Shown: positions 18,195 through 22,329 of the stretch, piece by piece
Position numbering within the stretch: position 1 is the stretch's first letter
Layout of the letters: each line of letters opens with the position of its first letter
Source of the DNA: a virus
Virus record (IMG/VR): IMGVR_UViG_3300030108_004973
Location: 1 to 36,438 of that record
DNA: 36,438 nt
Direction: 5' to 3' (one strand)
Program-made: the position numbers and the translations under genes
Notes under the pieces: model-generated
The model's input: the letters and a program-made list of their open reading frames with translations, nothing else
What the model was told of the DNA's origin: nothing
Database searches by the model: none

Positions 18195-18457
18195 TTGAAA
18201 CTCCTCTCTAATGCGTGGAACAACTCATCTATTTGCTCAGGGGTTGGACCGTTGTCCAGCATTTCGATCTCCTCCATATAGAGGCGTTCCATCTGACTAG
18301 GGGTATACCCTGAGTCGCCAGGCATCTCGACACCCTGGTGATGATAGGATGGAGGCTTGATTTTGAATGTTCCGCCGAGGGCGGGTTGAACGGCGGAGCC
18401 GAAAGCGTCAGACACCTCTGACGCTAAACCATTATCATTATTCTTACTGTTAGTCAT
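18191..18457 (-). CDS. Hypothetical small protein after the AT-rich spacer
   Basis: An 88-aa protein starting MTNSKNNDNG. It has a Pro/Gly-rich middle and an acidic C-terminal helix (YTPSQMERLYMEEIEMLDNG). It begins just after a 53-base AT-rich spacer, the only real intergenic gap in the early operon, so it may open a second transcription unit. Function is unknown. Confidence 0.6.
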   Translation of the reverse strand: MTNSKNNDNGLASEVSDAFGSAVQPALGGTFKIKPPSYHHQGVEMPGDSGYTPSQMERLYMEEIEMLDNGPTPEQIDELFHALERSFK

Positions 18458-18477
18458 ATTATTAGTTATTATTAGTT
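18458..18477. repeat. Tandem 10-bp AT-rich repeat before the second early gene block
   Basis: ATTATTAGTT occurs twice head to tail at 18458-18467 and 18468-18477, directly upstream (minus strand) of the ATG at 18457. The surrounding 18458-18510 is almost all A/T and includes TATAAC-like and ATATATCATATTAA stretches on the minus strand that could form a promoter. No clear -35 box is seen. Confidence 0.45.
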
Positions 18478-18501
18478 ATATGTTAATATGATATATGTTG
18501 T

Positions 18502-18531
18502 GCTATAACCTTATTCGCCTTTGGTTATAGC
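18502..18531. promoter_or_regulatory. Perfect 9-bp inverted repeat at the end of the winged-helix gene
   Basis: GCTATAACC (18502-18510) and GGTTATAGC (18523-18531) are exact reverse complements separated by 12 bases that hold the stop codon of the winged-helix gene. No T-run follows on the minus strand, so it is not a standard terminator. Being next to a DNA-binding protein gene and upstream of the AT-rich spacer, it could be an operator for autoregulation. That function is inference. Confidence 0.5.
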
Positions 18532-18783
18532 ATCAAGCAAATATCTCTTAGATAGCCGCATTTTCCTGGTTTGGTTGCGTCCCATTTTCTGGATGACGCC
18601 CCGCTTTACCAGTCTCCCAATCAACTCCTGAATGTAATGCTCGGACAGACCGATATCCTCGGCGATACGCAAATTGGACGCGAAACAGCCATCCGGCCAC
18701 CCGCCGATGTACCCGGCGAGTAGGGCTTCCGCAGGACCGAGGGTCCCTTTCAGGAGTGAGCTTGGCACCCAAACACCACGCAT
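18511..18783 (-). CDS. Winged helix-turn-helix DNA-binding protein
   Basis: A 90-aa protein. ATG 18783 was chosen for the upstream CAGGAG; the open frame continues to a GTG at 18813. Residues about 30-60 (CFASNLRIAEDIGLSEHYIQELIGRLVKRGVIQKM) read as a helix-turn-helix followed by the wing of a small winged-helix domain, like those at the N terminus of phage replication initiators or in transcription regulators. There is no partner domain, so it could be a repressor, activator or replication-origin binder. Candidate targets in this window are the inverted repeat at its own 3' end and the 17-bp iterons at 19909-19976. Confidence 0.7.
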   Translation of the reverse strand: MRGVWVPSSLLKGTLGPAEALLAGYIGGWPDGCFASNLRIAEDIGLSEHYIQELIGRLVKRGVIQKMGRNQTRKMRLSKRYLLDAITKGE

Positions 18784-18944
18784 GCTATACGATGCTCCTG
18801 TTTTTTGATCCACTCACTGGATAGTGCATCTGCGATCACTTGCTCGCCGTGCAAGTAAACATCCGTAATCTCCACTTCATTATCCCATGGCTCGTACTTG
18901 AACAACCATTCACCTCCAAAATCGTCTATATATTCGTCAATCAT
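18750..18944 (-). CDS. Hypothetical small acidic protein
   Basis: A 64-aa protein starting MIDEYIDDFGGEWLFKY, acidic and aromatic-rich. It overlaps the Zn-knuckle gene by 4 bases (ATGA) and runs into the winged-helix gene by about 34 bases. Function is unknown. Confidence 0.55.
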   Translation of the reverse strand: MIDEYIDDFGGEWLFKYEPWDNEVEITDVYLHGEQVIADALSSEWIKKQEHRIACVVFGCQAHS

Positions 18945-19780
18945 GCTGCTCCCTTCGTAGCTGTTGGTCTTTTGAAAAATGCGAACGAGCTGTCGTCGCG
19001 AGATGGGCTAAATGTAGCTGTGATAGCTATAGCATCGCCCTGGTCCACGTCAAGAGAGGATGGCACACTCCCCCAACATCTCCGGCCATCCTCGAGCTGT
19101 ATGAGGCATTTGATGGACCATCCCCAATCAGACTCGACATCCTTGAGATTGAGGATGGTACCCTCGATGGGGTAACGACCGCTCTCCCAATCGGGAGCCA
19201 TGGCCTTCCTGGCAGCGTCCGCCTCTTCGCGGGCTTTCCGTTTCGCTTCCTTCTCGGGATACTCCCGGACTATCCGATGGACGAAAGCAATCTGCTTCCG
19301 ACTCAAGCTGAAATACTGTGACAGCTTGCGGAGCATATCCTCCGCAATGGAACGCTCCCAACTGCCGAGATCCTGATTATCACGAGCAGCCTCCAGGAAA
19401 CGCACCACGGGCTTCCACCGCCACGAACGACGCATGGCCTTTCGAAGGCCAGCCAGGTATATCCTATTGGCCTTGTGGGCCGCTCGTATCTCGCCAGCAC
19501 TCTCAAAGTCTAGCCTGCCGGAACAAGTAGTTCCAATAATGACATGCTCGCCGCTATCATGCTGATAAATGCCTCCAGATTTCAGAGCAGCACCACAATG
19601 GGTGCAATGGTTTAGGCTGTACCCGTTCGATTCGACGGCAACCTGAAGGTCGATTGGCATTGGATCCACTGGCTCCCCGAAATAAAGGCTCCTATTGTCG
19701 AATGACTCGACAAACCGATACGCCCGAGGGTTAAAACCGCCGCTAAGGCGGTGTTTCTTTATATTGCTATTGTTAGTCAT
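18941..19780 (-). CDS. Zinc-knuckle-containing phage protein, first gene of the early operon
   Basis: A 279-aa protein from ATG 19780 (GTG 19798 is an alternative). Residues about 57-88 hold HCTHCGAALKSGG, then HDSGEHVIIGTTC (C59, C62, H74, H79, C86). This small zinc site resembles one in uncharacterised phage proteins where a TGExxxVGxxC-like segment follows the CxxC. A long charged helix follows (about 165-190; REYPEKEAKRKAREEADAARK), then a beta-rich C-terminal part (TILNLKDVESDWGWSIKCLIQLEDGRRCWG). As the first early gene next to the iteron region it may bind nucleic acid; that is inference. Confidence 0.65.
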   Translation of the reverse strand: MTNNSNIKKHRLSGGFNPRAYRFVESFDNRSLYFGEPVDPMPIDLQVAVESNGYSLNHCTHCGAALKSGGIYQHDSGEHVIIGTTCSGRLDFESAGEIRAAHKANRIYLAGLRKAMRRSWRWKPVVRFLEAARDNQDLGSWERSIAEDMLRKLSQYFSLSRKQIAFVHRIVREYPEKEAKRKAREEADAARKAMAPDWESGRYPIEGTILNLKDVESDWGWSIKCLIQLEDGRRCWGSVPSSLDVDQGDAIAITATFSPSRDDSSFAFFKRPTATKGAA

Positions 19781-19794
19781 CCCCACCACACTAA

Positions 19795-19862
19795 GCACAC
19801 TCCCCTACATGTCAAATGCGTTCCATCTAGTTTTTTGTTTTACAGTAAGGCACACTCCCCTA
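19795..19862. repeat. 13-bp direct repeat pair upstream of the early operon
   Basis: GCACACTCCCCTA occurs at 19795-19807 and 19850-19862, each preceded by a TAAG. The copies are 55 bases apart in the leader/promoter region of the leftward operon. They could be operator sites or parts of early promoters. Confidence 0.5.
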
Positions 19863-19884
19863 GCGGCCCCACCGGATGGCTGCT

Positions 19885-19897
19885 GGTCCTTCGGACC
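19885..19897. other. Small GGTCC/GGACC hairpin in the divergent region
   Basis: GGTCC (19885-19889) and GGACC (19893-19897) pair around a TTC loop. There is no T-run, so it is not a terminator. It immediately precedes the iteron array. Confidence 0.4.
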
Positions 19898-19908
19898 AAA
19901 TCTGGCTA

Positions 19909-19976
19909 GGCAAAAATTGCCTACCGGCAAAAAATTCCCATAGGTAAAAATTTCCCATGGGCAAAATTTGCCTACA
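19909..19976. repeat. Four 17-bp tandem iterons (candidate origin or operator array)
   Basis: Four head-to-tail units of exactly 17 bp start at 19909, 19926, 19943 and 19960: GGCAAAAATTGCCTACC, GGCAAAAAATTCCCATA, GGTAAAAATTTCCCATG and GGCAAAATTTGCCTACA. Units 1 and 4 are near-perfect dyads (GGCAAA..TTGCC). The array lies in the only divergent intergenic region, between the leftward replication operon and the rightward GC-rich cassette. Iterated AT-cored dyads at about 1.6 helical turns fit initiator-binding iterons or cooperative repressor sites. Confidence 0.75.
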
Positions 19977-19997
19977 AAAAAGGTCAATTTTTCTCGC

Positions 19998-20012
19998 GAT
20001 CCGGCCCGGATC
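19998..20012. promoter_or_regulatory. GATCCG/CGGATC dyad before the GC-rich cassette
   Basis: GATCCG (19998-20003) and CGGATC (20007-20012) form a perfect 6-bp dyad with a 3-base centre, 17 bases before the ATG at 20030. It could be an operator or an RNA hairpin in the leader. Nothing else is recognisable between the iterons and this gene; no good ribosome site is seen. Confidence 0.4.
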
Positions 20013-20029
20013 TGTCAACATTTTGGACG

Positions 20030-20518
20030 ATGACAAACACATTGATAAACGCGGCCGCCGCTCTGTTCCGGCCGCAACCGCCCCGAGCGGTATACAAGAC
20101 CCGCAACCTATCGTTGCGGCTCCCCAAGGGAGCAAATCCGGCCCGGTACCTACTGGACCTCACCCGGCCTGTCCGGGTTTATCGGAACCTGACCCGCGAC
20201 TGCTACTCCATCCAGCAGGGCGGAATCGTAAAAGCCCACGCCGACAGCGTCGTTCTTGAGGATGTCGCCTGGACGGTTAGTCAACCCGGCCGCCGCCGGG
20301 TGATTCGTGACGGTAAGAAAAATGTCCATGCATTCGCCGTTGGATACCTGGTCCCGACCACGACCGCAGCCTATGCGGCCCCCGTAAGATACAACCCTTA
20401 CAAGATGGACAGCTTCCGGGCCGATCAATACAACGCCCGCTTGACCAAAAGCGACGGCGCCTATCTGAACGCCCACAGCCAATCGTTCGCCCTTTGGAGC
20501 CCGGAGGTTGAAAAATGA
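20030..20518 (+). CDS. Hypothetical protein of the GC-rich cassette
   Basis: A 162-aa protein, basic at the N terminus (LFRPQPPRAVYKTRNLSLRLPKG), then beta-rich (YSIQQGGIVKAHADSVVLEDVAWTVSQPG). The C-terminal part has YNPYKMDSFRADQYNARL. I do not recognise the family. The codons are dominated by GCC, CGC and CCG, unlike the rest of the genome. It overlaps the next gene by 4 bases (ATGA), so the two form one translation unit. The neighbouring gene resembles actinophage proteins, which suggests that the pair came from a GC-rich phage. Confidence 0.7.
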   Translation: MTNTLINAAAALFRPQPPRAVYKTRNLSLRLPKGANPARYLLDLTRPVRVYRNLTRDCYSIQQGGIVKAHADSVVLEDVAWTVSQPGRRRVIRDGKKNVHAFAVGYLVPTTTAAYAAPVRYNPYKMDSFRADQYNARLTKSDGAYLNAHSQSFALWSPEVEK

Positions 20519-21129
20519 GACGCCTAGCCGAAACTAGCGACCGGGCTATCACGGCCCGGCTTCGCGCCTGGCTCCGAGTAGCCACCGACCGCCAATGGGC
20601 CGACGGCCTGGCATGGTATCCGGCCGCCCAGCTGATAGCGGCCGCAATCGCGGCCCGAGTAGGGATTAGCCGCCACGCAGCCGCCAACGTCATCGCCGCC
20701 CTCTCCCCGCGTAACCGTTGGGAGCGTAACATCGAAGATGCCCAGAACCTAGCGGCCGCTTGGGCCGCCGGAGAACCGGAGGAGAGCGTGACGGTCTGCA
20801 CGCCTCACGCCAACCGCCGGAAGGCCTGGGCCGCCCTTCATGGCGAGCCGATCAGCGACTCCGCCCCGAAAAGCCACGCGTTCGCCCTCAACATCAGCCG
20901 ATTGGACCCGGCCCGGGTTACCATCGATTGCTGGGCGATGCGATCGGCCCTGGTCCCGCCGGGAGAGCTTGCCCGACTGCCAGCCCCGCCCGCTTGCCAG
21001 GAGTCGCCGACGGAAGTCCAGTATCGCCGCCTTGAGCGGCTACACCTAGAGGCCGCCGAGCGTGAAGGCCTAGCCGGGTTCGAGTTGCAAGCAATTGTTT
21101 GGACCGCTATCCGGGAGGCGTGGAAATGA
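20515..21129 (+). CDS. Phage protein with SPRNRWERN motif (actinophage-like family of unknown function)
   Basis: A 204-aa protein. It opens with WYPAAQLIAAAIAARVGIS, followed by VIAALSPRNRWERNIEDA (about residues 59-76), KSHAFALNISRLDP, VTIDCWAMRSAL (about 138-149) and a C-terminal GFELQAIVWTAIREAW. I recall this motif order from proteins common in actinobacteriophages, with unknown function. The helix-rich layout with a late 'VTID.WA.R' Asp recalls helix-hairpin-helix DNA glycosylases, but this is only a guess. A 60-base sample at 20521-20580 has 41 G/C, against 21 at 27181-27240, so the gene is probably acquired. Confidence 0.7.
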   Translation: MRRLAETSDRAITARLRAWLRVATDRQWADGLAWYPAAQLIAAAIAARVGISRHAAANVIAALSPRNRWERNIEDAQNLAAAWAAGEPEESVTVCTPHANRRKAWAALHGEPISDSAPKSHAFALNISRLDPARVTIDCWAMRSALVPPGELARLPAPPACQESPTEVQYRRLERLHLEAAEREGLAGFELQAIVWTAIREAWK

Positions 21130-21227
21130 GGGATCCCGAAGAGCAAACCGAAGCCGCCCTGATCGTCGGGATTTGCCTATTGTTGGCGCCGATCCTGATC
21201 CTAATCCTCCTTCTCATGGGATACTAG
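21126..21227 (+). CDS. 33-aa single-pass membrane peptide
   Basis: ATG 21126 overlaps the previous stop (ATGA). The product begins with a charged MRDPEEQTEA segment and then has an unbroken hydrophobic run of about 20 residues (IVGICLLLAPILILILLLMG) before the stop at 21225-21227. The coupling and clean transmembrane design make it a likely gene. It may be a small inner-membrane effector or an accessory of the GC-rich cassette. Confidence 0.6.
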   Translation: MRDPEEQTEAALIVGICLLLAPILILILLLMGY

Positions 21228-21510
21228 CCACGCCAAAATCCATCCCCCAGCCGGAAGCGAAAGCGCCACCCACGCGCGACCGCTTTCGGCTTCCGCGTGT
21301 CCGCTTCCGAACGGCCCGCCGCGTGTCTTCGCTTCGCTCGCCGCGTCGGGTACCCGCTTCGCGGCTAATAATAGCAACTCGCTACGCTCGCAGCGCCGCC
21401 GTCTTCGCGGCTAGATCGCTTCGCGATACCATCTTCCGCTACGCGGCAATCATAGCAGCTCGCTACGCTCACAACAAGGGGGGGGGAGTGCTCGCTGCGC
21501 TCACACTCCT
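21226..21510. repeat. Block of short GC-rich palindromes and imperfect repeats (no gene)
   Basis: No convincing gene lies between 21228 and 21578. The stretch is packed with mini-dyads built on CGC-TTC-GCG and CGC-TAC-GCG, such as CCGCTTCGCGG (21354-21364), ATCGCTTCGCGAT (21415-21427) and CCGCTACGCGG (21436-21446). The 19-mer ATAGCAACTCGCTACGCTC (21371-21389) returns at 21452-21470 with one change, inside a longer imperfect repeat about 82 bases apart. A run of nine G (21478-21486) and a GGAGTG/CACTCC stem (21485-21509) close the block. It marks the edge of the GC-rich cassette. Confidence 0.65.
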
Positions 21511-22142: not shown

Positions 22143-22329
22143 CAGGGACAGAACCACCGATCGGGACGCATACGATCGTGGATGGGAACGCATTTTCGGG
22201 GGAAACATAGATTCGACGAAAGCAGCGATGCTTTCGGACGTGGGTGCAAATCCCACTTCCTCCACCATAGAAAAACAATCATTTGTGGCACCGCCAATTA
22301 GGCACGGAATAAGGAAGATCATTGAGTAA
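22126..22329 (+). CDS. Small SGKGD...WERIFG phage protein whose frame runs through the tmRNA-like RNA
   Basis: The ATG at 22126 overlaps the end of the terminase small subunit gene. The first 24 codons encode MSGKGD, a basic DRD stretch, then a Y-D-R and WERIFG. This matches a tiny protein seen in many phages, typically ending soon after the W.(R/A/K)IFG motif. From codon 25 (base 22198) the frame is the tmRNA-like sequence, giving the nonsense-like 'DVGANPTSST' that T-arms yield when translated. The frame stays open to 22329 (67 aa). Either the C-terminal part is dual-coding or the native stop was lost when the RNA element arrived. The N-terminal part is the credible protein. Confidence 0.55.
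   Translation: MSGKGDRDRTTDRDAYDRGWERIFGGNIDSTKAAMLSDVGANPTSSTIEKQSFVAPPIRHGIRKIIE
22198..22267 (+). ncRNA. tmRNA-like tRNA-like domain without mRNA-like domain (mini-ssrA)
   Basis: A 70-nt element folding as the tRNA-like end of tmRNA. Acceptor stem GGGGGAA (22198-22204) pairs with TTCCTCC (22257-22263), including G3:U70, the alanine identity pair, followed by A73 (22264) and encoded CCA (22265-22267). AGATTCGAC (22209-22217) matches the conserved tmRNA D-loop signature. GAAAGC/GCTTTC (22218-22223/22230-22235) is a P2-like helix closed by only six bases. GGAC (22236-22239) and T-arm GTGGG/CCCAC (22240-22256) follow as in bacterial tmRNA. The T-loop is TGCAAAT (position 55 is G). The tag ORF and pseudoknots are absent. 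It lies between the terminase genes and has no D-stem or anticodon arm, so it is not a normal tRNA. Confidence 0.8.

Follow-up and report, generated by a model that had tools for sequence, protein, structure and literature searches.

Organisation of the genome and host signal

The stretch of DNA analysed here (the window) is an entire virus record of 36.4 kb, and it probably holds a complete marine phage genome because 98 bases are common to both of its ends. As the initial annotation had it, the locus of interest is located between a leftward replication operon and a rightward cassette, and the first genes on its two sides are indeed divergently oriented (Table 1). The cassette has a G + C content of 64-66% and encodes L5 gp82-like and DUF7178 genes, and its GC skew is at odds with its rightward coding direction. 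A nearby winged-helix gene, which had also been pointed out, is present about 1.1 kb from the locus and within the leftward operon, its open reading frame extending to 18813 instead of 18783.

Further to the right, between a terminase-small-subunit-like gene and the next ORF, there is an element of 70 nt with a 52.8-bit match to the tmRNA model (RF00023) that covers both ends of the model. A short hairpin takes the place of the mRNA-like part, and the element consists of a lone tRNA-like domain with a CCA end; versions with another hairpin can be found in four more distant relatives (L022, L023, L054 and L057). It may represent a minimal tmRNA or else a decoy.

With respect to the host, the pentamer GANTC occurs 83 times in the window compared to 140 expected occurrences. 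It is the most avoided dyad 5-mer both in the window and in the pooled relatives, and it is likewise avoided in alphaproteobacterial loci. This fits an alphaproteobacterial host of the CcrM-carrying type.

The 17-bp array and its surroundings

In the intergenic region between the two divergent genes there are four head-to-tail units with an exact period of 17 bp, all of which have the form GG-AT-core-CC. The array had been placed at 19909-19976; its existence holds, and its bounds are better set at 19907-19974. The periodicity goes beyond chance: the identity at lag 17 (37 of 51 positions) was never reached when the region was simulated 5000 times with a Markov model, and the lag identity of the array was matched at no lag from 9 to 45 in 300 simulations of the whole window. 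Two of the units had been described as dyads, and unit 1 is in fact a perfect and unit 4 a nearly perfect one. A scan with the matrix of the units returned no fifth copy in the 36.4 kb, and the array reaches from 123 to 56 bp before the start codon of the first rightward gene (20030).

Table 1. Positions of the features in and around the divergent control region
Feature	Positions	Strand	Basis or remark
AT-rich tract	18440-18535		direct repeats and TGCTATAACC/GGTTATAGCA dyad
Winged-helix protein, resembling O-like replication initiators	18511-18813	-	profile resemblance; role as array binder judged unlikely
First leftward gene, phrog_4750-like	18941-19798	-	profile resemblance
Candidate leftward promoter block (TTTGACA, GGGGAGTGTGC box, start codon context)	19776-19819	-	found by pattern in the control regions of 15 of 20 relatives
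First GCACACTCCCCTA box	19795-19807		sequence and relatives
Second GCACACTCCCCTA box	19850-19862		sequence and relatives
TGGTCCTTCGGACCA hairpin sequence	19884-19898		common to several relatives
Unit 1, TAGGCAAAAATTGCCTA	19907-19923		perfect dyad; 25.1 bits by fliF-site matrix
Unit 2, CCGGCAAAAAATTCCCA	19924-19940		17.0 bits by fliF-site matrix
Unit 3, TAGGTAAAAATTTCCCA	19941-19957		18.8 bits by fliF-site matrix
Unit 4, TGGGCAAAATTTGCCTA	19958-19974		near-perfect dyad; 25.4 bits by fliF-site matrix
Candidate rightward promoter (CTCGCG, about 17 bp, CAACAT)	19992-20026	+	assigned by eye, guided by the CATGAT that relatives have at this position; inferred
First rightward gene, mycobacteriophage L5 gp82 family (PF25735)	20030-20518	+	profile match
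GC-rich cassette	20030-21500	+	base composition
70-nt tRNA-like element	22198-22267	+	match to RF00023

Candidate promoters of the sigma70 type, recognised by eye and by conservation, flank the array on both sides, and near it no sigma54 site was found even when up to two mismatches were allowed. Repeated dyads are located close to the promoters of divergent genes, as far as can be judged from position and from the conserved leftward promoter block, and a multi-site operator, which had been named as one option at the outset, gains support from this arrangement. The GCACACTCCCCTA box occurs in one to three copies and is near-invariant across all relatives; its first copy in the window sits between TTGACA and the leftward start codon, and no known regulator could be assigned to it.

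An intrinsic terminator or another RNA element was considered as well and rejected: there is no T-run 3' of the array on the plus strand, the minus strand offers only a weak stem of the kind expected by chance, and no Rfam model matches there. Comparisons with named phages and plasmids gave either no similar DNA or matches at chance level, and a literature search returned no match to the unit sequence. The unit may resemble the 17-bp KorC operator of IncP plasmids.

Control regions of related phages

By searching IMG/VR with the terminase, the primase-helicase, the winged-helix protein and the DUF7178 protein, about 20 distinct orthologous control regions were collected. The leftward TTTGACA block is recognisable by pattern in 15 of 20 and the GCACACTCCCCTA box in all of them, and it is the sequence between the leftward promoter block and the first rightward gene that is exchanged among the phages. 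One relative (L013) keeps the array with five units spaced 17, 17, 17 and 16 bp, of which the two outer ones are identical and the inner ones diverged, and three others (L005, L006 and L008) have a single unit of this type followed by TAGGT/ACCTA half-sites. No unit was found in the other thirteen control regions scanned. Elements that differ from the array, namely dyads of the TAGGTATTTTTACCTA type, dyads of GCTTTACNGTAAAGC or a site with TGTTCCACGTGGAACA, occur at the same spot in most relatives. The check on conservation proposed in the initial annotation therefore has a divided outcome, and the absence of the array from most close relatives is part of what that annotation had itself named as speaking against its reading.

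Among the relatives, the array does not covary with the first gene on the left or on the right, and three phages (L013, L096 and L153) have a near-identical start of the first rightward gene but do not have the array in common. Among named phages, the closest terminase is that of C75C1, which has neither the boxes nor the array. The TGTTCCACGTGGAACA palindrome, which resembles the bacterial chromosome partition site parS, can be found in perfect form in several relatives' control regions (L008:2218, L009:2297, L010:1, where the contig begins inside the palindrome, L096:1247, L153:3752 and L161:3740) and is absent from that of the phage studied here. In another relative, the corresponding control region harbours about four 19-bp tandem repeats of the GCTTCCTAGAAAGCGCCTC type (approximately at L015:3263-3345).

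Matching sites at flagellar promoters

Across bacterial genomes at large, the strict tandem pattern gave ten scattered matches, few of them near one gene class. In contrast to the two sites given by the reversed pattern as a control, the generalised dyad TAGGYAAWWWTTRCCTA was found at 14 sites in 13 of 385 genomes, which represent the class of the Kordiimonadaceae MAG G001. With the neighbourhoods of 13 of these 14 exact sites inspected, ten sites lie beside flagellar genes and three have other neighbours. The flagellar neighbours are fliF in five cases (L188, L193, L197, L198 and L201, by Pfam FliF), a flagellin gene in three (L190 and L192 by the Pfam N-terminal domain, one of them just under the cut-off, and L191 by sequence similarity) and flaG in two (L194 and L199, by Pfam FlaG).

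This association was also seen in genomes that had been drawn without regard to the motif. Using a matrix made only from the phage units, a site of at least 14 bits was present upstream of fliF (400 bp upstream and 60 bp into the gene) in 18 of 28 genomes compared to none of 22 upstream regions of recA (p = 7e-7, Fisher's exact test), and strong matches numbered 21 in 12.6 kb of fliF-upstream sequence, the figure for the full 214 kb of these loci being 26. The fliF sites mostly reside 50-175 bp before the start codon, a range that includes the distance between the array and the rightward start codon, and several of them are paired with a spacing of 21-22 bp as compared to 17 bp in the phage. 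In turn, when the window is scanned with a matrix derived from the fliF sites, the four highest scores belong to the phage units (Table 1), and the next match has 12.4 bits. As the phage matrix had served to select these fliF sites in the first place, the result shows consistency and is no independent test. Two other dyads of this phage group were considered as host sites, too, and rejected, as neither TAGGTAWWWWTACCTA (1 of 115) nor GCTTTACNGTAAAGC (0 of 115) was enriched in 115 alphaproteobacterial genomes.

On the basis of these comparisons, the unit of the array is, by sequence, the same dyad as that found before fliF, flagellin and flaG genes in alphaproteobacteria. The match suggests that the phage has copied a motility switch of its host to the place where both of its early gene sets are turned on.

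The likely binder

In Caulobacter, FlbD acts via ftr sites at fliF and at later flagellar promoters (PMC3930126, PMC3096577), and its binding to ftr4 upstream of fliF results in repression, while ftr sites of later genes confer activation (PMC3930126). Because of this binding to ftr4 and of the gene context of the matching sites, the protein that binds to the array is likely to be FlbD or an orthologue, with the name being derived from gene context and not from a matched footprint or an ftr consensus. As expected for a sigma54 activator, the dyad on the flaG side in L199 has a perfect sigma54 site 81 bp away, and a site with at most one mismatch occurred in none of 300 random segments. If FlbD binds in the phage, the lack of a sigma54 promoter in that region makes a mode of action like that at fliF the likelier one. 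The presence of FliX was considered as a proxy for FlbD and discarded as uninformative, as nearly all flagellated genomes carry FliX and its presence does not separate genomes with and without a fliF site, three with the site lacking a FliX match.

The reading that we hold to be reasonably probable is that the array comprises four operator sites for a flagellar regulator of the host, most likely FlbD, in the divergent promoter region of the phage. FlbD, a sigma54-type enhancer-binding protein of alphaproteobacteria, or its orthologue in the infected cell would bind to the units and would then repress or activate the phage promoters on either side, the mode seen at ftr4 and fliF being the likelier one, so that early phage transcription would follow the flagellar and cell-cycle state of the host; titration of the regulator might be an added effect. 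Binding by FlbD, regulation of both promoters and coupling to host motility are all what we infer.

Alternative explanations

The array had initially been described as iterons, possibly those of a replication origin bound by the winged-helix protein. In keeping with such a role, the repeats are in tandem, have AT-rich cores and lie close to a replication operon, and the protein resembles O-like initiator profiles. However, most relatives that keep the protein, recognition helix included, do so without the array: the recognition-helix region ISDHYVQVLIGRLVKRG is identical in L156, from an array-carrying phage, and in L089, whose contig, as far as it reaches, shows a control region of a type without the array. 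The winged-helix protein was therefore rejected as the binder, its recognition helix being constant across array types. The skew analysis that had been proposed for mapping the origin likewise points elsewhere, with the minimum of the detrended GC skew near 21.9 kb (21880), about 2 kb from the array, and an origin at the array was rejected on this ground, too. A better candidate for the origin is the AT-rich tract just downstream of the winged-helix gene (Table 1), which in the close relatives where it is readable is 73-82% AT and has a ACATATAACATA-like motif in common. Together with the match of the unit to flagellar promoters this leaves an origin at the array the least probable of the readings considered, and the array probably does not consist of origin repeats.

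Two further explanations, both of which we regard as unlikely, are compatible with operator-like dyads. According to one of them, the array serves a regulator encoded by the phage itself, and the flagellar match is due to convergence on a Fis-type dyad; dyads between divergent promoters and their differing copy number and sequence among relatives would suit this, but the ORFs scanned yielded no DNA-binding regulator apart from the winged-helix protein and an HTH protein resembling the terminase small subunit, and the match to the fliF sites is specific. According to the other, the array is mainly a sponge that titrates the flagellar regulator and shuts down flagellum synthesis without regulating phage promoters. 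As the phage genome is amplified to many copies, its four strong sites, which match the host regulon, would be apt for this purpose. However, a number of four to five per genome is perhaps rather low, and the array is located exactly between divergent promoters, about as far from the start codon as the fliF sites are.

Similar arrays in unrelated phages and implications

Unit 1 is present in exact form in 23 IMG/VR stretches. In six unrelated contigs (L138, L140, L141, L145, L146 and L147) a second unit is located exactly 17 bp away, an arrangement found nowhere in simulated sequence of equal total length (1.6 Mb). Clusters of flagellar-type dyads, with up to six in about 180 bp, also occur in unrelated phage contigs (L175:2856-3032, L133:354-582 and L141:7115-12679). 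As GANTC avoidance was not found in the unrelated phages with similar arrays, some of them may have other hosts or binders.

We put forward only tentatively that several unrelated phage lineages independently acquired arrays of flagellar-regulator sites, by which transcription would be timed according to the motility and cell-cycle state of the host, and that in the present group the control region might work as a slot with exchangeable content, host-type sites (this dyad, a parS-like site and others) being swapped between relatives with otherwise similar genes.

If operation by a host flagellar regulator holds true, the phage would directly read the motility regulator of its host, and the timing of infection would be linked to the flagellated state of marine alphaproteobacteria. 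It would also provide a sequence handle for the host prediction of uncultured phages, as carriers of the site would infect cells with the regulator, and a reason why the control regions of very similar phages differ so strongly.

Comparison with known systems

Like origin iterons such as those bound by lambda O, the array consists of units that are repeated head to tail and have AT-rich cores, and it lies close to a replication operon, but it is neither in or next to the initiator gene nor kept with the initiator, and its unit is a flagellar promoter site. With the multi-site operators of phages it has in common repeated dyads between divergent promoters that vary among relatives, whereas a cognate phage repressor was not found here and the unit matches a host regulon. 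Differences from the FlbD/ftr system of Caulobacter crescentus are that the phage units number four to five with a 17-bp period, as opposed to one or two spaced by about 21 bp, and that the array sits away from flagellar genes and without a sigma54 promoter. The two are alike in the gene context of the unit, in that a 17-bp GG-AT-core-CC dyad, sometimes paired, resides 50-180 bp upstream of fliF in many alphaproteobacteria, and FlbD can repress as well as activate.
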